From positions 1 to 30,410 of the IMG/VR virus record IMGVR_UViG_3300008459_000244: a stretch of 30,410 bases of DNA. One strand, written 5' to 3'. Every line of letters begins with the position of its first letter. The stretch's first letter is position 1. This document shows, one piece after another, positions 1,208 to 26,896 of the stretch. The position numbers and the translations under genes are program-made. The notes below the pieces were generated by a model. The model was given only the letters and a program-made list of their open reading frames with translations, was not told the origin of the DNA and made no database searches. The DNA is from a virus.

Positions 1208-1221
1208 TACGCAAAGACGTA
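1208..1221 (-). promoter_or_regulatory. TACG-N6-CGTA palindrome
   Basis: An exact copy of the window-wide palindrome (spacer CAAAGA on the plus strand). In the minus direction it is followed by TTGAG and lies 64 bases before the ATG at 1144. It is read as the promoter or operator of the leftward genes. Confidence 0.55.
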
Positions 1222-1446
1222 TCAATCGGTTGGGAGGTGAGCGTCAGCGTAAACAGTAATCCATTTGGCGTGTTGCTCGCTCCAATATTGGAGGGTATAC
1301 CGGACCAAGGAGTCGGGTTCCTCGTCGAAAAAGCACCGCTCCTCAGCCTGCTCGTCACAGGTTGCCTGACCGCTCCAAGCAGTTTCTCCGTTTTCCAGCA
1401 TGCGGTACGTGCGTGTTTTCGTGCGATGGTAGTCTTCAGGTGTCAT
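1222..1446 (-). CDS. Hypothetical protein (74 aa)
   Basis: The ATG at 1446 begins MTPEDYHRTKTRTYRM; an in-frame GTG at 1464 is a less likely start. The protein is acidic and aromatic-rich, has two cysteines, and ends WITVYADAHLPTD. A similar tail motif, YADAGLPTE, is found inside the unrelated-looking protein at 13164-13535, so this peptide may be a shared structural element. A near copy of the palindrome lies 49 bases upstream. Function unknown. Confidence 0.7.
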   Translation of the reverse strand: MTPEDYHRTKTRTYRMLENGETAWSGQATCDEQAEERCFFDEEPDSLVRYTLQYWSEQHAKWITVYADAHLPTD

Positions 1447-1494
1447 ATATTGCGATTGTGTCACCCGCGATTAGATCGTCCAGAGATTTGTTTA

Positions 1495-1508
1495 TACGCG
1501 ATTGAGTA
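1495..1508 (-). promoter_or_regulatory. Near copy of TACG-N6-CGTA palindrome
   Basis: On the plus strand TACG-CGATTG-AGTA, one mismatch from the palindrome. It lies 49 bases upstream of the ATG at 1446 on the minus strand and next to the 12-bp repeat array. Probable promoter or operator of the 1222-1446 gene. Confidence 0.4.
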
Positions 1509-1520
1509 CGCGAGGGAACG

Positions 1521-1588
1521 CCCCAGCTCCGCCCCAGCTCCGCCCCCAGCTCCGCCCCCAGCTCCGCCCCCAGCTCCGCCCCCAGCTC
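1521..1588. repeat. 12-bp tandem repeat array
   Basis: The unit AGCTCCGCCCCC recurs with its A at 1525, 1536, 1548, 1560, 1572 and 1584, so the first period is 11 and the rest 12. There are about six copies, the last degenerating after AGCTC. The array sits exactly between two outward-facing palindromes (1495-1508 and 1602-1615) in the divergent region 1447-1693. It could be an iteron-like binding array, a regulatory array or a slippage repeat. ORFs through it are low-complexity (proline/alanine or glycine/alanine) and look non-coding. Confidence 0.85.
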
Positions 1589-1601
1589 GTTTTCGCCGCC
1601 T

Positions 1602-1615
1602 TACGTGAATGCGTA
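1602..1615 (+). promoter_or_regulatory. TACG-N6-CGTA palindrome
   Basis: An exact copy (spacer TGAATG), followed by GTAAAATAAT on the plus strand, 79 bases before the ATG at 1694. Likely promoter or operator of the plus-strand unit 1694-3518. Confidence 0.5.
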
Positions 1616-1693
1616 GTAAAATAATCATGCGGAGTGACTGACGGTGGCGTTTAATAGGGTGGGAATTATCCCAACCAACCACATACTGAGTAA

Positions 1694-2770: not shown

Positions 2771-2784
2771 TCCGCGTATGCGTA
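2771..2784 (+). promoter_or_regulatory. Near copy of TACG-N6-CGTA palindrome
   Basis: TCCG-CGTATG-CGTA, one mismatch, 72 bases before the ATG at 2856. Further downstream a TTGACA-like hexamer occurs in GAGGGTTGACAAG. Either could drive the 2856-3518 genes. Confidence 0.4.
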
Positions 2785-2855: not shown

Positions 2856-3053
2856 ATGAACACCGAAAAACGTGAAATCAAAAAACTAAAAGCGAACGCA
2901 TTAGCCGATTTTATTGCGGATAACACGGCGGTTTACGTCACCGAAGAGGATGCAGACAACGAGGACCGTCCGTTGGATTGCTCCCATACGCCGCATTCAA
3001 TCCTAATGTCTGATCTTCAGGCACAAGCGAAAGACGGGCATGGTTTTTTCTGA
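2856..3053 (+). CDS. Hypothetical protein (65 aa)
   Basis: The start MNTEKREIKKLKANALADF at 2856 follows an A-rich, ribosome-site-free leader (ACAAGAAA). The protein has a basic N-terminal helix, an acidic centre (TEEDADNEDRP) and a polar C-terminus. It has no membrane segment or known motif. It lies between the small membrane peptide and another membrane protein on the same strand. Confidence 0.65.
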   Translation: MNTEKREIKKLKANALADFIADNTAVYVTEEDADNEDRPLDCSHTPHSILMSDLQAQAKDGHGFF

Positions 3054-6870: not shown

Positions 6871-7503
6871 TCAATACGCCCACTTCGCATCTCCCAGGAT
6901 CTCATCGGAATCCTGCCACCATTCATCCCATTTGGCGTTGGAGGCTGCGTCCCAGTCTGGGATTGCGGAGATTGCGTCCTTCTTGGTGAGCGAGGTTGGC
7001 AGGTACTTGATGCGGTTGTTCGGGTAGATGGCGATCTGTCCGTTGGAGAGACGGATGACATTCCCCTCCTTGTGTTCTTCCAGGAGTTCAGCGTCCCCGA
7101 CATCCAAGGTTCCTGCGGCTTGTCCCTCTGGGAGATAGTCGATGGTGAACATGTAATGCCCCGACATTGGCGGATGTCCCTTGCCTAGATTGACGAGGAC
7201 GGGCACGTCGTTCAGTTGATCCTTCCTCCAGACTTCGATGGAGCCAGAGAGGCATTCCCACATCTGGACCTTGTGGAGAGGGATGGCTTTGTCCGTCGCT
7301 TCCGGCAGGCACCAGTAGATGCAGTGCGGCGGGACTTTGTCGTAGCAGGCTGCGTACTTCTCGACCCAGACTTGGAAGCAGAGCGGGCGGTTTCGCATTG
7401 CACGGACGGATACCAGCCATGCGGGTTCGTACTGGGACGGATCACCGCCGAATGCGTCACAACGGACGAAGACTTTGGCTTTGGGGAGGTTGGCGTTTCT
7501 CAT
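6871..7503 (-). CDS. Large hypothetical protein (210 aa)
   Basis: One of the largest operon proteins, starting MRNANLPKAKVFVRCDAFGG. It is alpha/beta with many aromatic and cysteine residues in the first third (WVEKYAACYDKVPPHCIYWC), a beta-rich centre (GHYMFTIDYLPEG) and an acidic, tryptophan-rich C-terminus (SNAKWDEWWQDSDEI). No catalytic motif is recognised. It is coupled upstream by ATGA and leaves an 8-base gap downstream. Confidence 0.78.
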   Translation of the reverse strand: MRNANLPKAKVFVRCDAFGGDPSQYEPAWLVSVRAMRNRPLCFQVWVEKYAACYDKVPPHCIYWCLPEATDKAIPLHKVQMWECLSGSIEVWRKDQLNDVPVLVNLGKGHPPMSGHYMFTIDYLPEGQAAGTLDVGDAELLEEHKEGNVIRLSNGQIAIYPNNRIKYLPTSLTKKDAISAIPDWDAASNAKWDEWWQDSDEILGDAKWAY

Positions 7504-7775
7504 TTGTCCCCCAGCAATAACTTAGCTGCCCGCTCAATGAAAGCCTTCGCCTCATACGGTTCTGCGTATCCGGCACCGTATGGGCTTACGCCATCGTATA
7601 TCTCATGGTGGTGGAAGCGGGCGTCGTGGTCGAGCGGATCTCCATCTGGCGTTGCTGCGATGGACAGGGACCAGTTGTTACCCCTGCTCCGGAAGTAGAA
7701 CGGCAGTCCGTTGATCTTGCCTTCTGCCTGCACGGGGCAGAGTCCGCAGGGGCCTTGTTCGTATTCGATGGTCAT
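7500..7775 (-). CDS. Hypothetical protein with CxxC (91 aa)
   Basis: The start at 7775 (MTIEYEQGPCGLCPVQAEGK) is fixed by the ATGA overlap with the upstream gene. One CxxC pair at residues 10 and 13 and a histidine cluster (DARFHHHEIYDG) could together hold a metal. Helical C-terminus. Role unknown. Confidence 0.72.
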   Translation of the reverse strand: MTIEYEQGPCGLCPVQAEGKINGLPFYFRSRGNNWSLSIAATPDGDPLDHDARFHHHEIYDGVSPYGAGYAEPYEAKAFIERAAKLLLGDK

Positions 7776-7957
7776 GGCGTATCCTTCGGCTTGATGTAAA
7801 GCGGGCATTCCTCTTCTTCGATGTCCGTAGGCATCACCCGCACAACGCAATCTCCTGGCGGGCATGTCCTACGCAGGCAGTCCTTGCAGTCTTTGCGCCA
7901 TCCGGTTGCGGTGGCGATCCCGTAACATCTGGCTACGTCGTTTGGCAGTGTATTCAT
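7772..7957 (-). CDS. Cysteine-rich small protein (61 aa)
   Basis: MNTLPNDVARCYGIATATGW is followed by CKDCLRRTCPPGDC, giving cysteines at 11, 24, 27, 32, 37 and 51. Spacing of the middle four resembles the small zinc or disulfide knots repeated in phage early regions. Function unknown. Confidence 0.75.
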   Translation of the reverse strand: MNTLPNDVARCYGIATATGWRKDCKDCLRRTCPPGDCVVRVMPTDIEEEECPLYIKPKDTP

Positions 7958-8718: not shown

Positions 8719-9306
8719 TCAACCCCAGGTTTCCGCCATGGCATCGGCAATTCCTTGATATGTCGTGGACCGAATCTTCCAGCGGTCGGCACTTGGCGGT
8801 AGCTTGTTCTGTCCTGAATCCGTCTGATTTCCCCAGCGAGGTCTTCCGTTTACGATACGAGGCGCAATTATGTTTGTGGGTTGGAGCTTCGGTAGATTCT
8901 TGAGCCAGAGACAAGTTGCCTTGCTGGCGTCGTGCCCGAACTGGTATGGATGGATGATTTGATCCGGCTTCCTAATTCTGGATGAGATGATGGATACTGG
9001 GTTCTCCAAGGCGATTTTCGGGATATTGGCGCTAAGGAGGAGTCGAACGAAGTCGAGGGCTTTGTCTGTTTCTTCCCAGCCTCTGCCCCGGTTGTTCCAA
9101 TGGATGCCAGAGACGCTGAGGTATGTGCATGGAGGGTGTGCGATCATCAGATCCCAACCGTCATCCAGAATATCACAGACATCCCCTTGGTAATGCGGAC
9201 CCGGCTTATCTGTTGGCAGAAGGTCGCAACTCATGGCGTCGTGTCCTTTTGCAATGAACGCATCCCGGACGGTTCCTGAGTATTCGCAGGCGACTAGGAC
9301 TTTCAT
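8719..9306 (-). CDS. Small DNA cytosine-methyltransferase-like protein (195 aa)
   Basis: The start MKVLVACEYSGTVRDAFIAK at 9306 places a motif I-like SAM-binding loop (ACEYSG) at residues 6-11, the catalytic-type PPC at 58-60 (AHPPCTYLSVSG) and the ENP motif at 101-103, the order of C5 cytosine methyltransferases. The end, TYQGIADAMAETWG, matches the terminal motif (G-I-A-x-A-M-A). At 195 residues it lacks a full target-recognition domain, as do many phage homologues, so it may act as a minimal methyltransferase or a host-modification factor. Methylation could protect phage DNA from restriction (inference). It overlaps the upstream gene by four bases. Confidence 0.82.
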   Translation of the reverse strand: MKVLVACEYSGTVRDAFIAKGHDAMSCDLLPTDKPGPHYQGDVCDILDDGWDLMIAHPPCTYLSVSGIHWNNRGRGWEETDKALDFVRLLLSANIPKIALENPVSIISSRIRKPDQIIHPYQFGHDASKATCLWLKNLPKLQPTNIIAPRIVNGRPRWGNQTDSGQNKLPPSADRWKIRSTTYQGIADAMAETWG

Positions 9307-9638
9307 ACAAAGTCCTCCATCTTGATTACGGGGTGAATGTGGTGCGGGTCGTCCGATGATCTCATCCACGGGTGATTGTGTTCGCTTTTGAACGGGACTA
9401 CTGGATCTGCACCGTCGTTTAGAATTGCCTCTGCGTAGGTGATCCAGTCCCTTACGTATTCGATATACCGCTTGGCTTCGTGGTAATGACGCATGTCGAA
9501 GTCGTAGTGGTGCATCTGGCTTTCAGCCCAATCCACTTTCTTCCTCCACTGCTTAACCCTGATTCGCGGACGGTTCCACGGCTTGGCTTTCGGCGTGGTA
9601 ATCGGATTCCGCATCCGTTCGTAGACAGGGATTATCAT
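9303..9638 (-). CDS. Basic, histidine-rich hypothetical protein (111 aa)
   Basis: MIIPVYERMRNPITTPKAKP begins a strongly basic N-terminal third (RPRIRVKQWRKKV), then a helical region rich in H and Y (HHYDFDMRHYHEAKRYIEYV). Likely nucleic acid binding by charge. Coupled to the methyltransferase-like gene by ATGA. No named family. Confidence 0.72.
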   Translation of the reverse strand: MIIPVYERMRNPITTPKAKPWNRPRIRVKQWRKKVDWAESQMHHYDFDMRHYHEAKRYIEYVRDWITYAEAILNDGADPVVPFKSEHNHPWMRSSDDPHHIHPVIKMEDFV

Positions 9639-9808
9639 TTCATCTTCAGTTTCCGGATTGCGGCCTTGAACTCCACCGCCATGTCACGGTGGTACTTCGC
9701 TTCCTCTTTGGCTCCGACCCAGCCTTCCTTCGCCTTCGATGTCTCCATCTTGGCGAGCCTGATGTGGGATTGGTGAATGCTCTTTAGTGTTTCGAGTACG
9801 TGCTTCAT
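9635..9808 (-). CDS. Helical protein (57 aa)
   Basis: A 57-codon ORF, MKHVLETLKSIHQSHIRLAK through AAIRKLKMK, fills the space between two genes and overlaps both by four bases, which strongly supports it. It is all-helical and basic and probably forms a coiled coil. Function unknown. Confidence 0.72.
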   Translation of the reverse strand: MKHVLETLKSIHQSHIRLAKMETSKAKEGWVGAKEEAKYHRDMAVEFKAAIRKLKMK

Positions 9809-10029
9809 GTGAGTTTCAGTGTTTGTTCTTGTTCCGGCAGCTTGAACGTCCCCGGCTTGACCCGGATGAGCATTCCTCGCTTCACCATATTAGACAGAAT
9901 CGCGCCTGTGTGCTTTTCCGTATTCGCGTAAACGTCGCCGCCGACTAAGCGGACTGCCTCTTTCAGGGTGACGAAGCCGTTCGTCTTTGCCGAGCGGAGA
10001 ACCGCCTGCTGCTTACGGGAGGGCTTCAT
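9805..10029 (-). CDS. Winged-helix-like DNA-binding protein (74 aa)
   Basis: MKPSRKQQAVLRSAKTNGFV is followed by LKEAVRLVGG and AILSNMVKRGMLIRVKPGTF, a helix-turn-helix then wing pattern (recognition helix around residues 41-52, hairpin around 53-65). Small phage winged-helix proteins of this kind act as local transcription regulators or partners of larger enzymes; the target is not evident. Confidence 0.7.
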   Translation of the reverse strand: MKPSRKQQAVLRSAKTNGFVTLKEAVRLVGGDVYANTEKHTGAILSNMVKRGMLIRVKPGTFKLPEQEQTLKLT

Positions 10030-10340
10030 GGGTGCAGATGGATCGGTAGCGGGAGGAGATGCCTCCAGTGGGTCACAGTGAGTTGATACTCCGTCATACT
10101 ACTCCACCAATAGTCAGATCCATCCCACCATGCTTGGCTTTGCGTCTTGGTCTGGTCAAGAACTAGAACACCAACCTCCTCTTCCGGAAGCTCATCCTCT
10201 ACGGATACCCACCCAAAGTTCGCTTCCCGTTTCTGGGCGAGCAAGTCTCCGAGTTGATCTTGGAGTTGCCGCTTGAGTTCAGGGTCTCCTTCAAGGGCAA
10301 TGATCTCCTTGAGGTTTGGAATGGCAATAGCTCGGTTCAT
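10026..10340 (-). CDS. DUF551-domain phage protein (104 aa)
   Basis: An N-terminal helix (LKEIIALEGDPELKRQLQDQ) precedes GWVSVEDELPEEEVGVLVLD and the closing THWRHLLPLP, the signature of DUF551: W-x-S-V-x-D-x-L-P, a strand, then V-T-H-W at the end. The family is common in phages and has no known activity. The N-terminal helical addition is not part of the domain. Confidence 0.82.
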   Translation of the reverse strand: MNRAIAIPNLKEIIALEGDPELKRQLQDQLGDLLAQKREANFGWVSVEDELPEEEVGVLVLDQTKTQSQAWWDGSDYWWSSMTEYQLTVTHWRHLLPLPIHLHP

Positions 10341-10579
10341 ACTTCAAAAAGCCTGCATCCAAAGTTTGCGTCCGTTTCAATGGAGTCAACGACGCCTCCA
10401 CTCCACCCGGCGCTTACGGTAATGTGAACCCCGCAATTCATCCTCGTACATACCCCATCAACCCAGCCGTCGTCCGGGTGAATACTGCGCGAGTAGTTCT
10501 CCAGTGACTCCTTTGTTTTCGACGTAGCCAGCCAGTGCTTGCAGTCCCGGCATAGGCCGAATTGCGGAGGCGGGTTCAT
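10337..10579 (-). CDS. Cysteine-pair protein (80 aa)
   Basis: CRDCKHW near residue 10 and later CTRMNC plus a C-terminal cysteine (NFGCRLFEV) form a four- to five-cysteine set, as in the phage proteins with opening C-x-x-C-K-H-W and closing C-x-x-F/Y. A small metal- or disulfide-stabilised fold is likely; role unknown. Confidence 0.75.
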   Translation of the reverse strand: MNPPPQFGLCRDCKHWLATSKTKESLENYSRSIHPDDGWVDGVCTRMNCGVHITVSAGWSGGVVDSIETDANFGCRLFEV

Positions 10580-11262
10580 GCTTCCTCCTTCCAGTTGTAG
10601 ATTGGCTCTCCGTGGAAATACTTGCCGTCCACCTTATCGGATCGGACATACTTCCCAAGGAACTCCACGTTGCCTTTGCGCTCCATGCGCCAGACAGCCC
10701 CTTCGCAGAGACCGACCGCCCCGTGATGTGATGGCTCTACTGCTTCCATTGCAGCCTCAATGCTCATCGGTGGACCTTCGCTCAGAACCCTTGGCGTGAT
10801 GAACCCGCACTTCCCGGCCCTGTGTGCCACCATCTCGCACGTAATCCGCTCGGTTCCAACCATGATGTCGAATGGGACGAATGGTTCGTGCCAGAGCTTG
10901 TAGATCGTACCGTGCGCCATGTGAAGCCATTCGCCGCAGACTCGCTCGCCTGGGTTGAGGAGCGAGAAGAAGCGGTCTCGGTGCTTCATGACCCAGCGAT
11001 GGAAGACTTGGTGAGTCTCAAACTTACTGGTTTCTGCCCGGTATCCAGTACGGGTGAGAGAGACGATCTCGTCTCCGATTCGCGCAACGGCAACGCAGCT
11101 CCCGTCGAGCTTTTCTTGGACGACAACATGGTCATGCCTGTCCCTTGCCTTGATGGTAAGGAGTGCTGCTTGTTGGTCGGACAGCCCTTTGTCTGCCGGA
11201 CCTCTACGGGAACCGGGCAGGTGGGGGATTGATCCGTAGGCTTTTGTATTCAGTGGTTTCAT
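10576..11262 (-). CDS. RNA ligase family protein (228 aa)
   Basis: The nucleotidyltransferase motifs of ATP-dependent RNA ligases are in order: motif I EKLDGS with the adenylated lysine at K51, motif III GEW at 110-112, IIIa PFDIM around 130-134, motif IV CEGAVWR at 186-192 (E187), and motif V FLGKYVRSDK with K204. The enzyme would seal 3'-OH/5'-phosphate breaks in RNA after self-adenylation. At 228 residues it holds essentially the catalytic domain, shorter than T4 Rnl2 with its C-terminal domain. Together with the phage tRNA at 13542-13617, it suggests tRNA repair against host anticodon nucleases (inference). No polynucleotide kinase/phosphatase is visible. Confidence 0.85.
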   Translation of the reverse strand: MKPLNTKAYGSIPHLPGSRRGPADKGLSDQQAALLTIKARDRHDHVVVQEKLDGSCVAVARIGDEIVSLTRTGYRAETSKFETHQVFHRWVMKHRDRFFSLLNPGERVCGEWLHMAHGTIYKLWHEPFVPFDIMVGTERITCEMVAHRAGKCGFITPRVLSEGPPMSIEAAMEAVEPSHHGAVGLCEGAVWRMERKGNVEFLGKYVRSDKVDGKYFHGEPIYNWKEEA

Positions 11263-16033: not shown

Positions 16034-16038
16034 TGGTT

Positions 16039-16858: not shown

Positions 16859-16893
16859 GTGAGATATTCCTTCGTTCTCGCCGCCATCACAAA

Positions 16894-16907: not shown

Positions 16908-16918
16908 TTTGCAAAGAT

Positions 16919-16932: not shown

Positions 16933-16941
16933 GATTCCGGT

Positions 16942-17295: not shown

Positions 17296-17304
17296 ACCAT
17301 CACC

Positions 17305-17943
17305 ATGAGTACCCTAGAACTACGCCAGAGATTAGTCGAGATCGCCCGCAGAGACGTGGGCAAAGTCGAGATCAGCCACAATAGAGCGCCGTGGGTCCAA
17401 AAATACTGGGGATCTACGGATTACCCAAATGGACACAGGGATCGGGCTCCATTTTGTGCAGCCGCCGTAGCTTATTGGGTTCACCAGTGGCTCAAGGACA
17501 AAGAAGTCTTGGCTCAGTTGAAGTTGACTCTCGAAATGGCAGAACGCTGGCGCTGTAAATCTGCCGCTGCGTTTGCTTGGGCAACATGGGCGCAAGGACG
17601 GATCGCTTCATTCAACAAAGAGAAGGCAGCGAGAGAGGCCGCTGGATACAAGCCAAAACCCCAGGACCTACAGGTCGCCGGATTCAACGCCAACAGACAG
17701 GTCCAAATTATCTACGAGCAAAAAGACAGGAATGAAGGCAAACCCCGCCAAAGACTCAGGGCTGGTGATTTAATGATTTTTTCGATGTCCCACATAGGAA
17801 TAGTCGAGAATGACAATGCCAACATTGTCCAGACAGTGGAGGCAAACACAGGGGCTAACGGAAGCCGGGACGGTGACGGTTGCTTTTCAAAGACGCGAGA
17901 CCGCAAAGAGGCCCGCTTCTTCGTTCGCCTCATGGACCCGTGA
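17305..17943 (+). CDS. CHAP-like cell-wall amidase/endopeptidase, probable endolysin (212 aa)
   Basis: Catalytic residues of the CHAP/NlpC-type cysteine peptidase fold are visible: C51 in APFCAAAVAYWVHQW, H163 in GDLMIFSMSHIGIVE (GD at 154-155) and N181 in VEANTG. The fold would cleave peptidoglycan peptide or amide bonds for lysis. A helical insert of about 90 residues (roughly 60-150) separates the cysteine and histidine motifs, larger than usual. There is no signal peptide, so a holin or other carrier would be needed; none is recognised in this unit. Start MSTLELRQRLVEIARRDVGK follows AACCATCACC. Confidence 0.82.
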   Translation: MSTLELRQRLVEIARRDVGKVEISHNRAPWVQKYWGSTDYPNGHRDRAPFCAAAVAYWVHQWLKDKEVLAQLKLTLEMAERWRCKSAAAFAWATWAQGRIASFNKEKAAREAAGYKPKPQDLQVAGFNANRQVQIIYEQKDRNEGKPRQRLRAGDLMIFSMSHIGIVENDNANIVQTVEANTGANGSRDGDGCFSKTRDRKEARFFVRLMDP

Positions 17944-18032
17944 CGCACTTGCACTTCCCGGCGGTCAGCGCCCGCCCCCACTTGTGCCAGCACAGAGGGC
18001 ACCATCCTTCCGGCGTGTACAACTTGGAATAG

Positions 18033-18422
18033 TCACGCTGCGCTTGCGGAGAGGAGTCTTTTCCCGCAGTTCCTGATGCACTTATCTGCGACGAGTCCAC
18101 GTTTATTGACGATTCTAAGGAACAGTTCATTGGAGATCGTCCACCCGTCCGACAGTTCAATCAACTGGTCAAAGCGGAAACCTAGGGCGATCCAGTAGCG
18201 CCGGAAATTCGACGCATTGGTGCCTTCTCCGTTTTCGATCCTGCGGACCAAGTCATCTCGGCAATCCATCAGCCTTGCGACTTCCTCTTGGGTCAGCGGG
18301 TTCTTCGTCTTCCCTTGTGTGTTCCGGCTGAGACGCAGAAACTTCAGCATTTCTCTTGGCTTCCCGACAACGTCATTCGGATCAATTTTCGTCAGGTCTT
18401 TTCTACGGCTTTTTCTTGGCAT
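18033..18422 (-). CDS. XRE-family helix-turn-helix regulator (129 aa)
   Basis: The HTH of the Cro/C1 type spans roughly residues 42-66 (LTQEEVARLMDCRDDLVRRI and ENGEG), preceded by a basic arm (MPRKSRRKDLTKI) and followed by a helical dimerisation-like C-terminus (WIALGFRFDQLIELSDGW). As a phage transcription regulator it is the best candidate to bind the palindromic TACG-N6-CGTA sites. Its own leader (18435-18932 genes) begins at such a site, so autoregulation is expected. The C-terminal C-x-x-N-C is not a zinc site by itself. Confidence 0.82.
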   Translation of the reverse strand: MPRKSRRKDLTKIDPNDVVGKPREMLKFLRLSRNTQGKTKNPLTQEEVARLMDCRDDLVRRIENGEGTNASNFRRYWIALGFRFDQLIELSDGWTISNELFLRIVNKRGLVADKCIRNCGKRLLSASAA

Positions 18423-18434
18423 ATGGTTGGTGGT

Positions 18435-18653
18435 TTAATCTTGGTGCAGCAGAATCCAGAGCGCGAAGTCACGGGCATCAATACTAGGGATCTCCACCAG
18501 CGTCTCTTGATCGTGCGCCATAAGGACGAAGTCGCCGTTCTCATCCCGGCGCATGATGAGCTTCTTGTCTAGCGAGCGGGATAGGAAGTGCTTCTTCTTC
18601 CATGCGGCAGGCTGGATCAGGTTTGCGTTGTACTTGATTGGTGCCTGGCTCAT
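18435..18653 (-). CDS. Hypothetical protein (72 aa)
   Basis: The start MSQAPIKYNANLIQPAAWKK at 18653 follows the upstream stop directly; the in-frame extension reads through another gene. Basic centre (SRSLDKKLIMRRDENGDFVL), acidic end. No family recognised. It is 12 bases upstream of the XRE gene. Confidence 0.7.
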   Translation of the reverse strand: MSQAPIKYNANLIQPAAWKKKHFLSRSLDKKLIMRRDENGDFVLMAHDQETLVEIPSIDARDFALWILLHQD

Positions 18654-18654
18654 C

Positions 18655-18882
18655 TTACGACATCCTCCAGATCCGCGTTTCGGTTGCAGAGACCTTGCGG
18701 GTGCAGAGTTTGATTCCCCGTTGCCATGCCGTTGTGCGAATCGAATTCGCGTGCTTGCTCGGAAGCAGCACCGAGTCCCCGACCTCCATCGCATCCAGTA
18801 AAGCCTTGGCGCTTCCGTAGCTTCCAATTTCCCTCGGCACTGGAATCCCTTTTTCGATCTTTGGTAGTTGTGTTTCGCTCAT
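18655..18882 (-). CDS. Conserved phage protein, KGIPVPR type (75 aa)
   Basis: MSETQLPKIEKGIPVPREIG, then LLDAMEVGDSVLLPSKHANS and CTRKVSATETRIWRMS match the short phage proteins with K-G-I-P-[VI]-P, M-x-V-G-D-S and a final R-[VI]-W-R; they are thought to be small nucleic acid related domains of unknown role. The palindrome 18919-18932 is 37 bases upstream. Confidence 0.8.
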   Translation of the reverse strand: MSETQLPKIEKGIPVPREIGSYGSAKALLDAMEVGDSVLLPSKHANSIRTTAWQRGIKLCTRKVSATETRIWRMS

Positions 18883-18918
18883 CTGGTAGAAGTAATGGTT
18901 GTTTGATCTGTCTGCAAT

Positions 18919-18932
18919 TACGCAACGCCGTA
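18919..18932 (-). promoter_or_regulatory. TACG-N6-CGTA palindrome
   Basis: An exact copy, minus strand TACG-GCGTTG-CGTA followed by ATTG, 37 bases before the ATG at 18882. It would drive the 18655, 18435 and XRE genes. Confidence 0.6.
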
Positions 18933-19526
18933 TCAGGACGGGCGGTAGAACTCGCCAAAGTGTTCGCGGGCCGCTCTGTCGTAGGCGGCAGCAGCATCCG
19001 CGATCTCTTCAAAGTATCCGAGGTGCAGCGTTTTGCCGTCGATCTGGATCTTCGCTTCCCATTTCCCGCGATTCTTGATCCGTGTAACGCCCTTGCAACC
19101 ACTAGTGTTGTTCTTGTTCTTCCCGCGATTCCTGCCGTTCTCGGTCGGGGTTGCCAACCTGAGATTGCTTGGGTTGTTGTTCAGGCTGTCGCCGTCCCGA
19201 TGATCTGTATGTAAAACGCCTGGGTCTGACCCGGTTGTCAGCGCAAGGACAATTCGGTGGCATGTGCATTCATGCGTGCCTACGCGCACCCGGTAGTATG
19301 TTTTTCCGTATCCGACATTCACGGTAGATCCGGCTTCTTTTCCTGCATACATCGCATTGAAGATGTTCCACCCGCGTTGATTCTGGAAGTGATGCCTTGG
19401 TCTGATCTTCCAGCGGAGCCATGTTTTGCTGGTCGGGTCTATCTCGAAAGCCTCGCGGATCAAATCCATTTGCAGCGGAACCGCAGTTTTCGGCAGGTGT
19501 TTTCTGGATACTTTCGACTGACTCAT
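18933..19526 (-). CDS. HNH endonuclease with C-terminal AP2 domain (197 aa)
   Basis: The start MSQSKVSRKHLPKTAVPLQM at 19526 is favoured over an upstream TTG. Central HNH: CHRIVLALTTG, LHTDHRDGDSLNNNPSNL with its D-H pair, then NLRLAT and EN, the pattern of phage HNH nucleases. A basic linker (NRGKNKNNTSG) leads to an AP2 DNA-binding domain: SGCKGVTRIKNRGKWEAKIQ and HLGYFEEIADAAAAYDRAA. HNH-AP2 proteins act as homing endonucleases or nickases, free-standing here. Palindrome 41 bases upstream. Confidence 0.88.
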   Translation of the reverse strand: MSQSKVSRKHLPKTAVPLQMDLIREAFEIDPTSKTWLRWKIRPRHHFQNQRGWNIFNAMYAGKEAGSTVNVGYGKTYYRVRVGTHECTCHRIVLALTTGSDPGVLHTDHRDGDSLNNNPSNLRLATPTENGRNRGKNKNNTSGCKGVTRIKNRGKWEAKIQIDGKTLHLGYFEEIADAAAAYDRAAREHFGEFYRPS

Positions 19527-19566
19527 GTCTGGCTGGTAGGTTGTTGCTTGTTCGGTATATTTCAAT

Positions 19567-19580
19567 TACGGGATGGCGTA
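19567..19580 (-). promoter_or_regulatory. TACG-N6-CGTA palindrome
   Basis: An exact copy, minus strand TACG-CCATCC-CGTA followed by ATTG, 41 bases before the ATG at 19526. Probable promoter or operator of the HNH-AP2 gene. Confidence 0.55.
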
Positions 19581-19838
19581 TTAGGATTCTCGTTCATCCT
19601 GGAACGCACCAGAAAGCCTTTCCAGCATGTTCGCAATTCGGGCATGGTCCGGGATTAAATCCGACCCATCTTCTTCTCGTAAATACGGATTAACCACACG
19701 GGTGATATTTTCCCGATAGCAGTAGGCGTGAGACAACCGGGTGGCAAGCTCTGCAATTATTGGGCCATGCTCACCGCCAACGCTTGCCTTTTCAAAGGCT
19801 GTGGCGATCAGGACTAGGAGCGACATTTCGTCGTACAT
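19581..19838 (-). CDS. Hypothetical protein (85 aa)
   Basis: MYDEMSLLVLIATAFEKASV begins an acidic helical protein (AELATRLSHAYCYRENITRV, then ARIANMLERLSG). Its first 15 residues are hydrophobic but too short and charged for a signal peptide. The palindrome at 19881-19894 is 43 bases upstream, the same spacing as the other leftward genes. Function unknown. Confidence 0.72.
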   Translation of the reverse strand: MYDEMSLLVLIATAFEKASVGGEHGPIIAELATRLSHAYCYRENITRVVNPYLREEDGSDLIPDHARIANMLERLSGAFQDERES

Positions 19839-19880
19839 AATTCAGGCTTTCTAGTATCTGCCTGTGTTGTGTGGTTCAAA

Positions 19881-19894
19881 TACGTTTCTGCGTA
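19881..19894. promoter_or_regulatory. TACG-N6-CGTA palindrome, divergent
   Basis: An exact copy (spacer TTTCTG). On the minus strand it is followed by TTTG and lies 43 bases before the ATG at 19838; on the plus strand it lies at the left end of the structured noncoding region. It may serve either or both. Confidence 0.55.
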
Positions 19895-19895
19895 T

Positions 19896-20390
19896 TCTGG
19901 AAGAGAGAGGTAATCCGGCAGGAAGAACCGGAGCGAAACAGCTATCGCCTCTACGGATTAGGTAAAGGAGATGAGCTGAGGAGAGATGCGATCCGTATAG
20001 GAGATCACCATCGCGTTCAGGTGCTTGCTTGGGAGGTGTCAAACTCACGGGTCCGTTGGAACTCTAAAGAAGCATCCGGCTTCTCTCCAAACAACGGTTC
20101 GCACTCGCCTCCGCAGATCCCTGCGGCGTTTTGCTGTTCACCCGTTCTCCCACACGGGTCGGCGACCTTCCCTTGGAGGAGATTTTCCGAGTGGGGCAGC
20201 AATAGCGTCTCCGGAAGATTCCTGTCCATCGCAGGTTATATGGATGATGGATGACTGGGAACTTTGTTGCACCTCTGGATCAACCCGAATCAATGCAAAA
20301 AAGAACCCCCGCCGACTAGAGACTTCGGAAGGGGTTCTTTACCGGATTAGGTCCGGTGTTGAGGGAATCTTGCCGCCAGTCTCTAGTTAG
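19896..20390 (+). ncRNA. Candidate large structured noncoding RNA with 3' pseudoknot
   Basis: No gene is convincing in 19839-20524, but the plus strand is dense in stems. TAATCCG/CGGATTA at 19911-19917 and 19954-19960. 19986-19992 with 20010-20016. A nested arm CCGTT/AACGG (20053-20057, 20093-20097), GGA/TCC, AGAAGC/GCTTCT (20068-20073, 20079-20084). CCGCAG/CTGCGG (20111-20126). ACCCGT/ACGGGT (20140-20159). TTCC-GAG with CTC-C-GGAA (20185-20216). CCTG/CAGG (20221-20235). At the 3' end AAAGAACCCC (20300-20309) pairs with GGGGTTCTTT (20331-20340), while its loop ACTAGAGACT (20315-20324) pairs with AGTCTCTAGT (20378-20387), an H-type pseudoknot, with hairpin ACCGGA/TCCGGT (20341-20357) between. 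Size and style recall the large ornate phage RNAs such as GOLLD and ROOL, though identity is not claimed. Confidence 0.45.
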
Positions 20391-20446
20391 CGCAGGACTT
20401 GCTTACGGCGTGCCGCTACAATCGTCAAGCGGATTCCTTCTGCAAA

Positions 20447-20460
20447 TCCGCATTCGCGTA
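20447..20460 (+). promoter_or_regulatory. Near copy of TACG-N6-CGTA palindrome
   Basis: TCCG-CATTCG-CGTA, one mismatch, followed by TTTCCGGGATTGACA, 65 bases before the ATG at 20525. Likely promoter of the single gene 20525-21016, and by readthrough of the packaging genes. Confidence 0.45.
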
Positions 20461-20524
20461 TTTCCGGGATTGACAATGGCTTCCCGGAGATGCACTCTCC
20501 CTGAAACAACCCCGACCACGACCC

Positions 20525-21016
20525 ATGCTTTCCGCTCAATTTATCCCAGGGGGCAACCCCGTCGAGTTCGTCACCACCGGACCCACCAAGCTCGCCCTGC
20601 CTACGGTTGGTGCGCTGCCCGGCGTGACACAGAACAACATCGCAGCATCCACGCTGACGACTGCTGATTCCGGCAAGACGATCTTCCTAAAGCTGGCTGC
20701 CGGGTTTGCGACAACCCTTCCTCTCCCGGAAGCGGGGCTGAGCTTTGAGTTCATCGTCGGGACCGCCCCAAGTTCCGGCTCCTACACCATCGTCACCAGT
20801 GGCTCCGCAAACATCATCAAGGGGCAGGTGTATACCTCCGACTTCAGCGGCACGGTGGACTCTGATATTGAAGTTTCTGGCGGCGACACCGTCACCCTCG
20901 TCACATCAAAGTCCGTTGCTGGCGACCGCGTCGAACTCCGGTGCGACGGAACCAGTTGGTTCGTGTACGGCTTCTGCTCCGTCTTCGACGCCATTACTAT
21001 TACGCAGGCTTCCTAA
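20525..21016 (+). CDS. Beta-rich virion-like protein (163 aa)
   Basis: Starts MLSAQFIPGGNPVEFVTTGP. A Ser/Thr/Gly/Val-rich, almost all-beta protein; the second half alternates strands (YTIVTSGSANIIKGQ, VTLVTSKSVAGDRVELRCDG, SWFVYGF). This composition is that of capsid decoration or fibre tip proteins of tailed phages. It has its own upstream palindrome and is closed by a terminator at 21038-21073, so it may be made in different amount from the packaging genes. No exact family is recognised. Confidence 0.7.
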   Translation: MLSAQFIPGGNPVEFVTTGPTKLALPTVGALPGVTQNNIAASTLTTADSGKTIFLKLAAGFATTLPLPEAGLSFEFIVGTAPSSGSYTIVTSGSANIIKGQVYTSDFSGTVDSDIEVSGGDTVTLVTSKSVAGDRVELRCDGTSWFVYGFCSVFDAITITQAS

Positions 21017-21037
21017 TTTCGTGGCCGACATCACGAA

Positions 21038-21073
21038 GCGCCAGTTCAAGACACCCTTGGACTGGCGCTTTTT
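21038..21073 (+). terminator. Intrinsic terminator
   Basis: GCGCCAGT (21038-21045) pairs perfectly with ACTGGCGC (21061-21068), 15-base loop, then five T. It separates the 20525 gene from the terminase, whose ATG is only 12 bases after the T-run; the terminase must therefore be expressed by readthrough or from a promoter not recognised here. Confidence 0.85.
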
Positions 21074-21084
21074 CTTGAACCACC

Positions 21085-22932
21085 ATGCCAGTTCCGATCA
21101 TTCAGAGAAAAGGAGGGCTTTCTCCGAAGCCTCCGCAGTTTGACTACGATTCTTGGGGAGAAGACGAAAACGGGAACATCTACCATGAACTCTACGGGGA
21201 ATGGTGGGACGGCAAGATCGGGTACTCTCGACTGGATATTGAGCTGTCGGCGTACATCCGGGGGCTGAAACCGGAGGATGGGGGCGCAGGGAAATATCAG
21301 CACCTGCGGGAATGCGTTGATCTTCTCTGGAACTCAGACGGAAGGAGCATTGTGGAGTGGAATCCCTGGCTGGAGAAGATGCTGGAGGAGTCGTGCGAAC
21401 ACAACTTCCTTGCAGTCGCCGGATGTTCCTCGTCGTCCAAGTCGTTCGGGGGAGCCATCATCGCCATCGTCAACTTCATTGCGGACCCGGAGAATACCCT
21501 GGTCCTCGTCACCTCAACCTCCATCGGCGCGGCCAAGAAGCGGATCTGGAAGTCCGTCATCCAGCTTTGGAACAAGCTGCCGGAGAAATACCAGAAGCTC
21601 GGGAAGATCAAGCCCAGCTTGAATATGATCCACTACCAGCCGCAGGATGGATCAACGGCACACGACGCCGCCTCAATCACGCTGGTTGCCGCTGAGCAGA
21701 AGCAGGAAGCCTCCGCCGTCCAGAAGCTCGTCGGGTTGAAGAACGAGCGGGTGATCCTGATTGCGGACGAGCTTTGCGAACTCTCACCTGCCGTCCTCCA
21801 GGCATCCGACAACCTGATCTCAAACCCGTGGTTCCAGATGATTGCGATGAGCAATCCAAAGGACCGGGAGGATTCATTCGGTCTGATGTGCGAGCCCGTC
21901 GATGGTTGGTCTTCCTTGGACGAGTCAATGATGGAGTGGGACACGAAGTACGGGAAAGCCATCCGCTTCGACGTTCTTCAGTCTCCAAACTATCTGGAGC
22001 AGGAATGTATTTATAAATACATGCTGACCTACGAGAAGATCGAAAGGTTCCGCAACCAGCATGGGGAAAACTCAGCCCGGTTCTACCGCTTCTACCGAGG
22101 ATTCTTCCCTGTTCAGGGTGCCGAGGATACGATTTATACGGACACGGACTTCAACGCCTTCATGGCAGAGAAGATCAAATGGAAGGGTGAGCCAACGAAG
22201 GTTGCCGGACTGGACTTGTCCTTCTCCTCGGGTGGTGACAAAACCAGTCTGTGTATCTGTCTGTTCGGTGAAAGCGTGGACGGATTAACGTGCCTCCAGT
22301 TTGAGAAGTTCTACCAGATCCACGAGAACGCCGCCGACAAGCTGAACCCGCGAACGGATCAGATTTGTACCGAGGTGAAGAAGATCCTAGACCAAGAAGG
22401 CGTCGGGTATGCGAACGTGGCTGTCGATAATACTGGCGGCGCAGGCACGGTTGATCGACTGACTCAGTTCATGTCTAGGGATCTCATGCGAATCAACTTT
22501 GGCGGCAAGGCTACGGATCGCCCGGTATCTTCCAACGACAGAACTCCGTCGCACAAAAAGTACAAGAATCGCGTTTCCGAACTATGGGGTGTCGGAATTG
22601 AATACTTCCGTGGCGGGCAGCTTGCCGGATTCCGCAAAGACCATGATCTCTGCACCGAGATGAAAGCTCGCCGCTACAACATGGTGAAGGGCGCAGACGG
22701 TGAACGAATGGAGGTTGAGCCAAAGCCGAAGATGAAGCTCCGCATCGGTCGTTCACCCGATAAAGCTGACTCGCTTATGCTTTGCATTGAAGTCTGCCGC
22801 GAGAGATTCCACTGGCGATCCAAAGAACGCGGGCTGGCAGTGTTGCCTAAAAAGGATTTCTATGATGTAATGCGGAAGCTGGATGTGGTGAGTAGATCGA
22901 ATGGCGGTGGCGATTGGATGGCTATTGCTTGA
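21085..22932 (+). CDS. Terminase large subunit
   Basis: The DNA packaging motor ATPase/nuclease (615 aa). Deviant Walker A AGCSSSSKS (112-120); Walker B VILIADE (223-229, D228 E229); coupling motif AMSNPKD (254-260). The C-terminal RNase H-like nuclease has acidic residues D377 (AGLDLSF), D448 (VAVDN) and D562 (SPDKADS). This set and order define the large terminase. The N-terminus (about 1-90) is acidic and aromatic-rich. Start MPVPIIQRKGGLSPKPPQFD follows CTTGAACCACC. No small terminase is recognised in the window; it could be the 20525 gene only if that assignment is wrong, which is unlikely. Confidence 0.93.
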   Translation: MPVPIIQRKGGLSPKPPQFDYDSWGEDENGNIYHELYGEWWDGKIGYSRLDIELSAYIRGLKPEDGGAGKYQHLRECVDLLWNSDGRSIVEWNPWLEKMLEESCEHNFLAVAGCSSSSKSFGGAIIAIVNFIADPENTLVLVTSTSIGAAKKRIWKSVIQLWNKLPEKYQKLGKIKPSLNMIHYQPQDGSTAHDAASITLVAAEQKQEASAVQKLVGLKNERVILIADELCELSPAVLQASDNLISNPWFQMIAMSNPKDREDSFGLMCEPVDGWSSLDESMMEWDTKYGKAIRFDVLQSPNYLEQECIYKYMLTYEKIERFRNQHGENSARFYRFYRGFFPVQGAEDTIYTDTDFNAFMAEKIKWKGEPTKVAGLDLSFSSGGDKTSLCICLFGESVDGLTCLQFEKFYQIHENAADKLNPRTDQICTEVKKILDQEGVGYANVAVDNTGGAGTVDRLTQFMSRDLMRINFGGKATDRPVSSNDRTPSHKKYKNRVSELWGVGIEYFRGGQLAGFRKDHDLCTEMKARRYNMVKGADGERMEVEPKPKMKLRIGRSPDKADSLMLCIEVCRERFHWRSKERGLAVLPKKDFYDVMRKLDVVSRSNGGGDWMAIA

Positions 22933-22967
22933 CTTTACTCAGATACGTATTAAGCCTACAATCAGAA

Positions 22968-25319
22968 ATGACTTCATCGCGTGCCGACTTGCTACTAGAG
23001 AACATCCCGGATGACGAATCTCCGGCACCAGAGGAGCGGATCAAAAACGCATCGACGGGACGAGAATTCTACCGTGCGATGCTTCAAGCGGACAGGGCAT
23101 CTGCCGCGCAACGGGTTCGACATCAGTCAATGCTGGATGGTGAACCGCCACACGATCAGGCTGTCCTTGCCGCTACCGGGCAGGGAAGTATGACAAACCT
23201 CAACTGGGGTGATGCGGAAAACATTGTTGAGTACACGAAGTCCGGGATGATCGACTTGGTGAACTCAGTGGAGAACCTTGTCCGCACACCATTGCTGGCT
23301 CAGTATTTCGAGGATGAGGAACAAAGGCGCGAGTATGAACAGACGTTGGCAGAGGAAATCACCAAGACGTTCCGCCGCTGGGAAGGGTTTGATTTCAACT
23401 ACCAGAACCTGATCCATCACTGGCTCTGCTTTGGCGTTGGCATCGGCTACTGGGAAGACTCCATCGACTGGCGCTGGAAGACAACCGGGCTGTCAGACTT
23501 CTGCATTCCACGGCAGACTCTTGCTTCCGAAGAGAGGATCACCGTCGCTGGATGCCGCCGCAGGTACGAACTCCATGAACTTTACGAGAAGATTCGCGAT
23601 GAAGCCCGTGCTGAAAAGATGGGCTGGAATGTTCAAGCGGTGAAGCAGGCGATGCTGCGTGCGGATCATCCATCTGGCTCAACATCCGCATGGTCGGAGA
23701 CAGAATGGGAACGACTTCAAGCGCAGTTCAAGAACAACGACCTCGGAGCAACTGCTGCTGGTCGCACGCAGACTGTCGAAATGATTCACCTTTGGGTGCA
23801 AGAGTTTGACGGTTCTGTCTCCATGTACCTCGTCTCCGACAACCCACTTCAAGAAGACGGGAAGCAAGATCCATGGATGTACGTTCGTCGCCATGAATAT
23901 CCGGCAGTGCGGAATGCGTTCACGTTCTTCTGCTACGGCATCGGGACCAATGGAAGCTACCACTCCATCTCGGGCATTCTCCGTAAAATCTACCCACAGG
24001 TACAGGTCTCCAACCGTCTCCGCTCCAAGCTGGTTGATGCCGCCGCTATGTCGTCCGGCGTGATGCTCCAGCCACTCAACGAGACATCCTACGATAAGAT
24101 CGTCTACACCACGCTCGGGCCATACACAATGCTTCCAGCAAAGGACATTGCCGAGTACGTCGAACGGGCATCTCCGAATCTCGGGAACAACGTCACGCCT
24201 GTTCTTGCGGACATGGAGCGGACGATGAACCAGCGGGCAGGGCAATTCCAAGGCGGCTCCGCTTTCGGTGGCAGTCAAGAAAAGACCCGCTTCCAAGTTC
24301 AGGCAGAACTCGAAACACTCTCCCGCGTTGGCGCAACACAGCTCAATCTGTTTTACCCATCATGGGCAAGACTGATGCAGGAAGCCGTGCGCCGCCTCTG
24401 CCGGGTTGGATATTCAGACGCATCGCCTGGAGGCAAGGAAGCCGCCGATTTCCGCAGGCGACTTGCTCGTCGTGGATTCCCTGTCGAGATCCTTGAAGTC
24501 GTTGACTTTGATGCCGTCACCTGTGAGCGGGCAATCGGCTCCGGCTCCATGGTTCAGCGTAACGCCATGCTGGACGACATCGCCCCATACGCAGGCAGCT
24601 TTGATGAAGCGGGGCGGCACAACTGGATGCGGGACCGTGTCGCTGGCGCTCTCAAATCCTACGAGGTGGCAAACAGGTACATTGATCGGATGCCAGGGGA
24701 TCAGCGTCCGCCAGTAGACAAGAAGATTGCTGAGTTGCAGAACTTCGTCATGCGCTCCGGCTCGCCAATTCCAGTGGAGCCAAATGATATGCACGTCGTC
24801 CATCTGGACACGCACATTCCGTTCATTGCACAGATCCTCAACGACGTGGAAACCGGAGCGCTCAGCCTTGAAGAAGCCGTGCAGCCACTGCTCATCATCC
24901 ACGAACACTGCATCAATCACCTGTCGATTCTCTCCAATGATCCGACAGTCGAGTCAAAGGTCGCTGAGTACAATCAGGCTCTACAGCAAGCCGGGGAGAT
25001 TATCTGGAACGGCACGAAGAAGATTGAAGCCGCGCAGAAACGGGCCGCGCAAGAACAGCAGGCTCAGCCGCAGGAAGGACAGAATCCAGAAGCTGCCCAA
25101 AAAGCAGAGGAAATCAATTCCGAGATGCAGCGCAAGATCATTGAATTCCAAGTGAAGATCAAGGGGATGAATGACATCAGTGATGCCAAGCGCCAGAACA
25201 TGCTTGCGGATGCAGCCGTTAAGCGGAGGATTGAAATCGAAAAAGCCCAGCAAGGCGCGGCTTTGAAGGATGCAACCACGGCAGCGGAACTCCTCTCGAA
25301 ATCACGAACAATGCAATAA
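22968..25319 (+). CDS. Portal protein
   Basis: The dodecameric ring protein through which DNA enters the capsid (783 aa). The start MTSSRADLLLENIPDDESPA at 22968 is used; an earlier in-frame TTG overlaps the terminase end. Supporting traits: its place between terminase and scaffold/capsid; a central core rich in W and Y with INHA-like beta sections (IHLWVQEFDGSVSMYL, YVRRHEYPAVRNAFTFFCYG); RSKLVDAAAMSSGV typical of the clip/stem region; and a long C-terminal helical and Q/E/K-rich tail (AAQKRAAQEQQAQPQEGQ) extending into a charged coiled coil. It is long, like podovirus-type (P22-like) portals. Family placement is from architecture, not a search. Confidence 0.85.
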   Translation: MTSSRADLLLENIPDDESPAPEERIKNASTGREFYRAMLQADRASAAQRVRHQSMLDGEPPHDQAVLAATGQGSMTNLNWGDAENIVEYTKSGMIDLVNSVENLVRTPLLAQYFEDEEQRREYEQTLAEEITKTFRRWEGFDFNYQNLIHHWLCFGVGIGYWEDSIDWRWKTTGLSDFCIPRQTLASEERITVAGCRRRYELHELYEKIRDEARAEKMGWNVQAVKQAMLRADHPSGSTSAWSETEWERLQAQFKNNDLGATAAGRTQTVEMIHLWVQEFDGSVSMYLVSDNPLQEDGKQDPWMYVRRHEYPAVRNAFTFFCYGIGTNGSYHSISGILRKIYPQVQVSNRLRSKLVDAAAMSSGVMLQPLNETSYDKIVYTTLGPYTMLPAKDIAEYVERASPNLGNNVTPVLADMERTMNQRAGQFQGGSAFGGSQEKTRFQVQAELETLSRVGATQLNLFYPSWARLMQEAVRRLCRVGYSDASPGGKEAADFRRRLARRGFPVEILEVVDFDAVTCERAIGSGSMVQRNAMLDDIAPYAGSFDEAGRHNWMRDRVAGALKSYEVANRYIDRMPGDQRPPVDKKIAELQNFVMRSGSPIPVEPNDMHVVHLDTHIPFIAQILNDVETGALSLEEAVQPLLIIHEHCINHLSILSNDPTVESKVAEYNQALQQAGEIIWNGTKKIEAAQKRAAQEQQAQPQEGQNPEAAQKAEEINSEMQRKIIEFQVKIKGMNDISDAKRQNMLADAAVKRRIEIEKAQQGAALKDATTAAELLSKSRTMQ

Positions 25320-25322
25320 CGA

Positions 25323-25631
25323 ATGGACATCAAAAAGCGAATCGCAGAACTCAAACAAGACTTCAAATCTAATGCAATCCTCCGAGCCGAATGGGACACA
25401 ATTAGGCATTCGGTCGCATACGGGAAAATATCGGAACTCGTATTCCTTACGAGTGCAGATGCACTGTCAAAAGTCTCTTCAGCGCAGCACGACATTGTGG
25501 CAGCAAGGGAGCTGTTCAAACACCAAGCAGTTCAAGAAGTCTTCAGGGCGCTGAACGAAGTCCACATCCCAGAACCGGAGAAGACTCCAATCCCTGCTGC
25601 GTGGGAGCATATCACCGCAGATCCTGAGTAA
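25323..25631 (+). CDS. Hypothetical virion-assembly protein (102 aa)
   Basis: MDIKKRIAELKQDFKSNAIL is helical and basic, followed by helical SADALSKVSSAQHDIVAARE and a proline-rich end (IPEPEKTPIPAAWEH). It starts 3 bases after the portal stop, so it is coupled to it. Proteins at this position often help head assembly or connect portal and scaffold; not recognised individually. Confidence 0.7.
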   Translation: MDIKKRIAELKQDFKSNAILRAEWDTIRHSVAYGKISELVFLTSADALSKVSSAQHDIVAARELFKHQAVQEVFRALNEVHIPEPEKTPIPAAWEHITADPE

Positions 25632-25654
25632 TTTAGCCGAACCACCACAGACCA

Positions 25655-26809
25655 ATGGAATCACCATCCGCCATCGTATCGTCCGACCCTGGAGACTTTC
25701 TCTCCGTTATCAACGCCGCCATCGACAACCCGACCGAGGTTGCCGAAACGCCAGCCGCGCAGGAAGAAGTCTCGCCAGCACTGGATCTGAAGCCGTCCAC
25801 GCCAAAGGAATCGAAGTCCACGGAAACCAAGAAAGGAGCAGATGCCCTGCTTGGTGATGAGGAATCCACAGAGGAAGCCGCCGAGACGGATGAGGCTGAT
25901 GATACCCCAGACGAGATTAAGGAGGACAAGAAAGCCGCGTATAAGTGGGGCGAACTGCGGGCCGAAGCCAAGCAGGCGAAGGTTCTCGCCAAGGAAGTCG
26001 AGCAACTGAAGGCGCAACTGGCTGAGCGTGAGAAGCTGCGTGATGCCGATCCGCTGAAGCAGGAAGCAGAAGAACTGCGAAAGAAGTACGACGACCTTGA
26101 GAAGGAAGCCTACGTCTGGAAGATTGAGAAGACATCCGCATGGAAGAACGAAGTCGAGAAGCCAATCGCGATTATTCGTGAAGGCATCGAAAACATCGCC
26201 AAGGAGTACGAGGTGTCAGAGGAGTTGCTCTTTGAGGCATTCGCTGACGGCAATATGAAGTCCCGCGCCGAGAAGTTCGACCAAATCTTTGAGCATCTGC
26301 CACGGATCGTGCAAAACGAACTCGCCCGCTTGGATGCTGCCGCGACAGATGTCTCGCGCCGGAAGGCGGAACTGGAGTCGAACGCAGAGCAGGCTTACAA
26401 GGAACTCACTCAGCGGGAAACGGAGACGACCGAAAAGCAGAAGCTGGAATCCAAGGCCGCGCAGTTGCGGGCAATCGAATCCGACATGGCGAAGATCAAG
26501 AAGGTCGCCGCGAACTTTGTCTATGACGACTCGCCTCCAGAGAATGTCATCCGCGAGATCGAACAGGAAGTCGGCGCTACCTCGTTTGAGGACATGACGA
26601 CAGAGGAGAAAGCGTTCGCGATCATTGCATCGGCGGCACTTCCAAAGATGAACAAGACGGTCGTTGAGCTTCGGAAACAGATTGCTGGCTACAAGAAAGA
26701 GATCGCGCAAATCACCAATTCACGCCCCGGTGGCGCTGCATCTGCATCCAATTCCGCGAAAGGACAGCCGGACGGGAAGGGATTCCTAGAGGCAATCGGC
26801 ATTGCCTGA
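25655..26809 (+). CDS. Scaffolding-like protein (384 aa)
   Basis: Highly charged and helical, with a disordered acidic N-terminal region (EESTEEAAETDEADDTPDEI, around residues 69-88), then coiled coil (AKEVEQLKAQLAEREKLRD; EAEELRKKYDDLEKEAY) over roughly residues 105-160 and again 220-260 (RRKAELESNAEQAYKEL). The end is glycine/serine-rich (GGAASASNSAKGQPDGKG). Position directly before the capsid gene and composition fit the scaffold that templates procapsid assembly. It is followed by a strong terminator. Confidence 0.75.
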   Translation: MESPSAIVSSDPGDFLSVINAAIDNPTEVAETPAAQEEVSPALDLKPSTPKESKSTETKKGADALLGDEESTEEAAETDEADDTPDEIKEDKKAAYKWGELRAEAKQAKVLAKEVEQLKAQLAEREKLRDADPLKQEAEELRKKYDDLEKEAYVWKIEKTSAWKNEVEKPIAIIREGIENIAKEYEVSEELLFEAFADGNMKSRAEKFDQIFEHLPRIVQNELARLDAAATDVSRRKAELESNAEQAYKELTQRETETTEKQKLESKAAQLRAIESDMAKIKKVAANFVYDDSPPENVIREIEQEVGATSFEDMTTEEKAFAIIASAALPKMNKTVVELRKQIAGYKKEIAQITNSRPGGAASASNSAKGQPDGKGFLEAIGIA

Positions 26810-26828
26810 TTTACACCCAGCCATGGGT

Positions 26829-26864
26829 GCCCGCCATGTGTTTACAGACACTGGCGGGCTTTTT
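26829..26864 (+). terminator. Intrinsic terminator
   Basis: GCCCGCCA (26829-26836) pairs with TGGCGGGC (26852-26859); an inner stem GTGT/ACAC (26838-26841, 26848-26851) closes the loop; five T follow. It ends the packaging/scaffold unit, and the palindrome for the capsid gene starts 18 bases later, so the capsid gene is set apart for independent, high expression. Confidence 0.85.
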
Positions 26865-26882
26865 GTGTTGACAAAACGCAAG

Positions 26883-26896
26883 TACGCATACACGTA
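26883..26896 (+). promoter_or_regulatory. TACG-N6-CGTA palindrome, capsid promoter
   Basis: An exact copy (spacer CATACA), 10 bases after a TTGACA (26868-26873) and 167 bases before the capsid ATG. It starts the long capsid leader. With the terminator immediately before, this is the clearest promoter site in the window. Confidence 0.6.

Follow-up and report, generated by a model that had tools for sequence, protein, structure and literature searches.

The window, the whole 30.4-kb stretch of DNA analyzed here (an IMG/VR record), is that of a tailed phage and carries genes for a terminase, an HNH endonuclease, an endolysin and a DNA methyltransferase. The relatives are likewise contigs from metagenomes. 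In an annotated collection, the nearest phage records are only ~20-30% identical in the terminase, and a search for a cultured relative gave distant terminase matches only. A search for more relatives with gene 803-1144 returned a single match, an already known 52-kb contig, and when GTDB genome contigs were searched for prophages with the capsid gene, in order to find a host, there was no match. We compared the window with relatives that include G010 (52 kb), G011, G006 and G008, and with a distant 72-kb relative, G017. The sites described below offer an initial map of cis-regulatory elements in a phage clade without an isolate in the collections searched.

Nine exact copies of the palindrome TACG-N6-CGTA are scattered along the window, compared with 0.11 expected from dinucleotide shuffles (maximum of two in 100 shuffles), and 19 copies are found when up to one mismatch is allowed, compared with 4.1 expected. 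When all 4-mer half-sites with spacers of 0-15 were compared, TACG with N6 was the most frequent palindrome in the window. A preliminary description of this DNA, whose chance figure of 0.5 exact copies was conservative, had located eight exact and four one-mismatch copies correctly. It overlooked the exact copy at 7555-7568 and the conserved one-mismatch copy at 22936-22949, as well as the fact that the copy at 16894 serves genes on both sides. Seven of the nine exact copies are intergenic, while the non-coding share of the window is 16% (P = 7e-5). The remaining two, at 7555 and 11543, lie inside genes and neither is at a conserved gene start; the former is not conserved and is probably not part of the regulatory set. 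The one-mismatch copies at 279, 3138, 9917, 11876 and 19297 look like background. The other copies are collected in Table 1.

Table 1. Palindrome copies, adjoining putative promoters and a candidate regulator in the window.
Feature	Position	Strand	Surroundings	Relatives
Site A, exact	1208-1221	-	12 nt upstream of TTGACC-N16-CAGAAT, before gene 803-1144	G010 42796, with TTGACG-N16-CAGAGT
Site B2, one mismatch	1495-1508	-	Before gene 1222-1446	G010 42506
Site B, exact	1602-1615	+	Followed by GTAAAAT; before gene 1694-1906 and the DUF7227 gene	G010 42408
Site C, one mismatch	2771-2784	+	Before gene 2856-3053	G010 41206; G017 42719
Exact copy in gene	7555-7568	-	Within gene 7500-7775	G010 counterpart of the gene lacks the site
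Exact copy in gene	11543-11556	-	Within gene 11486-11716	Gene without match in relatives searched
Putative leftward promoter, TTGTGA-N17-GAATAT	16858-16892	-	Ends near ATG 16858	G010, TTGTCC-N16-TAAAAT
Site D2, one mismatch	16894-16907	both	Between two divergent genes; T-TTG directly on each side	Identical arrangement in G010, G011, G006, G008
Putative rightward promoter, TTGCAA-N16-TAGATT	16909-16942	+	Ends near ATG 16942; endolysin gene 17305-17943 next after that gene	
Site D, exact	16919-16932	+	Within spacer/-10 of rightward promoter; 25 bp from D2, centre to centre	D2/D pair retained in G010, G011, G006, G008
XRE-like HTH protein, earlier proposed regulator	18033-18422	-	Weak candidate	
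Site E, exact	18919-18932	-	Followed by A-TTGCAG-N17-TACTTC-N6-ATG of the 18655-18882 / 18435 / 18033 operon	G010 25776
Site F, exact	19567-19580	-	Followed by A-TTGAAA; before HNH-AP2 endonuclease gene	Also in relatives
Site G, exact	19881-19894	-	Followed by T-TTGAAC-N17-TACTAG; before gene 19581-19838	
Site H, one mismatch	20447-20460	both	Rightward, 8-9 nt before TTGACA of late operon (20525 on); leftward, heads candidate non-coding RNA	G010 23597; G017 57778
Site I, one mismatch	22936-22949	+	Terminase-portal junction, 18 nt before portal ATG	Exact in G014 9282
Site J, exact	26883-26896	+	9 nt after TTGACA, over expected -10; before major capsid gene 27063-28673	Palindrome identical in G010, G011, G006, G014, G016, G012

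At least one exact copy is present in 15 of the 18 related records searched. As a control, the pattern read backwards is rarer in these records, and scans of reversed sequences give few such sites. Counterparts with zero or one mismatch are found in G010 at the starts of the 803, 1222, 1694 and 2856 genes, the 16649/16942 pair, and the 18655, HNH, 20525, portal and capsid genes, and most of them are also present in G011, G006 or G008, as mapped on gene order. Even in the distant G017, where palindromes are few (three in 72 kb), counterparts precede two gene starts, those of 2856 and 20525. Relatives that do not keep the motif at the same gene starts had been named in the preliminary description as evidence that would count against it; the relatives do keep palindromes there. 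When the window and G010 are aligned at the palindrome, 90 of 96 half-site positions (94%) and 49 of 72 core positions (68%) are identical, compared with 55% of the flanks, indicating that the half-sites are more constrained than their flanks.

In the window (18917-18935), in G010 (24820-24836) and in G011, G008, G003, G007, G009, G012 and G015, HNH-AP2 genes end exactly at a palindrome, with TGA followed by TACG. Given that the same palindrome-promoter block is also found before different genes, these sites appear to be junctions between gene modules. The abutting stop codons, and the different upstream genes that meet the same palindrome, could be taken to mean that the palindromes are joints or targets of mobile HNH-AP2 endonuclease genes. 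We consider this very improbable, since most sites lack an HNH gene, and sites A, B, C, H, I and J are kept where none is present.

Many sites share a promoter-like layout, which we refer to as the main class. TTG follows the palindrome by exactly 1 nt (W-TTG) at 13 of 15 gene-facing sites, TA is found at offset 23-24 at nine of the 15 (P about 1e-5), and ATG is mostly 34-42 nt away; the scored sites were chosen for lying shortly before a gene and several are paralogous HNH-gene promoters, so that these P values are too small and indicative only. From the sequence, the main class reads as a -35-like TTGnnn, 16-17 nt, and a weak -10-like TAnnnn, and the transcript would begin at or just before the ATG. 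A looser scan detected the same layout at a RecT gene of G010 (47646) and, in G006, at the counterpart of Site E (13632). Sites B, C, I and J are without it. The preliminary description was correct that CGTA is followed by ATTG or TTTG, and its spacing of 36-43 bases to four leftward ATGs agrees with the 35, 36, 40 and 42 bases that we count between them. Its statement that the sites do not match the usual -35/-10 pair holds for consensus promoters (a sigma-70 scan at the sites found one, compared with 5.5 expected, and the -10-like elements resemble the E. coli consensus poorly), but overlooks the TTG at the -35 place and the weak TA 16-17 nt further. Leaderlessness does not mark the sites: most genes lack a Shine-Dalgarno sequence, with no difference for genes that have a site (P = 0.26; a few listed starts are off by about one codon). 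We rejected an RNA hairpin reading of the palindrome, as the stem is only 4 bp and the core varies.

The intergenic enrichment, the retention of half-sites while flanks diverged and the fixed spacing to TTG and ATG all bear out the earlier claim of a promoter-linked element. Some restriction-modification and partition systems typically have bipartite symmetric sites, and a DNA methyltransferase gene is present. Nevertheless, such a role apart from transcription, or mere chance, is extremely improbable with counts far above those of shuffles, half-sites that outlast their flanks, and ties to both gene starts and TTG. The CGTA plus T/A-TTG at fixed spacing acts like one block, and G006 and G010 keep the TTG-side half at sites with two mismatches in the far half. 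The TTTG-extended palindrome could therefore be the promoter itself, used by an atypical sigma factor or a variant of the host polymerase without a separate regulator. This seems quite improbable to us, since the majority of sites retain dyad symmetry, among them B, I and J, which lack the TTG layout, and no sigma factor or phage RNA polymerase appears in the family matches listed for the scanned proteins (one list being the best 25 of 57 families).

Between the promoter and operator options raised in the preliminary description, we favour a site for an activator or dual regulator. Starting from the observed sites, their conservation and their fixed spacing, we hold with moderate confidence that the palindrome is a clade-specific dimer site of one such protein, built into most promoters of the clade; binding, activation, repression and transcription starts are deduced from position. 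One putative DNA-binding protein thus probably controls most of the virus's genes. The palindrome would be bound by one symmetric (dimeric) regulator. If TTG is the -35 element, the palindrome would be centred near -43. Class II activators bound at this position contact both sigma and the alpha subunit of RNA polymerase, from which we infer that the bound protein would activate weak host-polymerase promoters. Both the weak -10 elements and the scarcity of consensus promoters are consistent with promoters that depend on an activator. The single palindrome at 16894 could serve both divergent promoters.

At 16919, 22936 and 26883 the site overlaps the core promoter, and the same protein would be expected to repress there. 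Activation at the main class together with repression at these sites would make the protein a dual regulator, determining which blocks of phage genes are expressed. The two palindromes at 16894-16932, 25 bp apart, are located between early leftward genes and rightward lysis genes, and a second dimer bound in the rightward promoter (16919) could hold back lysis. The core-promoter overlaps would also suit a purely repressive operator of the kind scattered through temperate phage genomes, with one repressor shutting most promoters in the lysogen, as would the intergenic sites scattered on both strands and the presence of an HTH gene (18033-18422) in the operon headed by Site E. We regard this possibility as serious although rather unlikely: sites of the main class have a set position, 1 nt before a -35-like TTG, which is an unusual place for a repressor-only site, and no integrase is among the best 25 of 57 families for 34 proteins scanned from partial genomes.

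If the dual role is correct, a single protein chooses among early, lysis and structural genes, and the layout rule allows promoters to be predicted in metagenomic contigs of related phages. The dual-regulator reading can be extended to a regulon-wide version, in which a single dimer, from a new regulator family or borrowed from the host, would drive nearly every unit from a -35-abutting site, fire divergent promoters both ways and produce mRNAs almost without leaders. Selfish HNH genes would each bring a copy of the site with them. In its entirety, this version is unlikely.

The XRE-like HTH protein encoded at 18033-18422 had been proposed to read the palindrome. It is ~70% identical in four relatives and conserved only in the near clade; no relatives beyond that clade were found in the viral or genome contigs searched. 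Its predicted recognition segment differs among members (CRDDLVRRIENG, CTDGVISKIEHG, ANDDLVRKIENG), whereas the half-sites are the same. G017 has no credible match (best E = 3.9), yet keeps the syntenic palindromes; it encodes a different XRE-like protein (48420-48782). The proposal is thus not supported, and the protein is a weak candidate. An AlphaFold model of the HTH protein (mean pLDDT 52) was too poor for a structure search. Across the protein and its relatives, the recognition segment is strongly variable and the ends are conserved, as if DNA specificity diversifies. It is possible that a host protein reads the palindrome, and TACG-N6-CGTA provides a short DNA bait for finding the clade's regulator. 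A search for other phage groups with the palindrome plus TTGCGTA-W-TTG returned six viral contigs, which we take to be chance matches because each has a single copy; the two that were checked have no similarity to the window.

Class II activators such as CRP or FNR bind near -41.5, and phage lambda CII binds at the -35. With a putative dimer site abutting the -35-like element, weak promoters and fixed spacing, the palindrome would, by analogy, work most like a class II activator site. It differs from the CRP, FNR and lambda CII sites in its sequence, in being recognized from sequence only, in being used at most units of one phage, and in its apparent use in both directions from 16894. The late promoters of phage P2, activated by Ogr/Delta, have a dyad near -55 and serve late genes. 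As at the sites described here, a dyad is common to several phage promoters, with one phage activator as its reader in P2. In contrast, the sites in the window are mostly centred near -43 and serve early, lysis and structural genes; only sites A (about -54) and H (about -51) come near the P2 position, which the main class does not share. No zinc-finger activator of the Ogr/Delta type appears in the family matches given for the scanned proteins (one list again being the best 25 of 57). A small Cys-containing protein (7772-7957), common to the window, G010, G006, G008 and G017, has no known link to the site.

Streptomyces phage phiC31 likewise has conserved inverted repeats scattered near its promoters and read by one phage protein. 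They differ from the palindrome in sequence and spacing, and are repressor sites. The verrucomicrobial LexA box, TGTTC-N4-GAACA, was ruled out, the half-sites here being TACG and CGTA with N6. The virion-polymerase promoters of phage N4 have a 5-7 bp stem and a 3-nt loop and are used by a phage T7-like polymerase. This type of hairpin promoter was also ruled out, given the 4-bp stem and 6-nt loop of the palindrome and matches of a giant G017 protein only to a helicase family and weak unknowns. The reading frame for that protein (G017 9193-23916) has 4907 residues with a helicase-like stretch.

Scattered sites read by one protein are already known in phages, and the palindrome of this clade is a further case: as is general for scattered phage operators, many near-identical promoter sites are found in one clade and are kept by selection. 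Stoperators of the L5 type are bound by an immunity repressor of the phage, which halts transcription. The genome of mycobacteriophage L5 likewise has numerous operators and stoperators, located in promoters and in short gaps between genes, and these sites are 13 bp, asymmetric, bound by a monomer and oriented with transcription (PMC9283540). Unlike these, the sites in the window are palindromic and promoter-linked, with one symmetric site used both ways at 16894, and because of this symmetry the palindrome is not an L5-type stoperator.

Several other features of the window may be of interest. To the left of Site H, on the minus strand, there is a candidate structured non-coding RNA (~20297-20432) that ends in a terminator hairpin, with complementarity between the hairpin loop and a segment further upstream. 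Judged by eye, three different sequence versions in relatives keep this complementarity (ACTAGAGACT/AGTCTCTAGT, AAGGGACG/CGTCCCTT and CTGAGGGG/CCCCTCAG). In an Rfam scan the candidate had no match, the sole match being a tRNA; a tRNA-Leu (anticodon CAA) is encoded at 13542-13617 on the minus strand, within the leftward gene cluster. Between sites B2 and B (~1520-1590) there are tandem repeats of ~12 bp (CCCCCAGCTCCG). Finally, two adjoining genes on the minus strand, 15812-16033 and 16039-16299, encode small secreted-looking proteins with PEP-CTERM-like ends that are kept in relatives. The first passes the TIGR02595 cut-off (22.2 compared with 16), and the second has a similar end with no profile match. 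Phage proteins of this kind suggest a host with an exosortase, which the phage may use.
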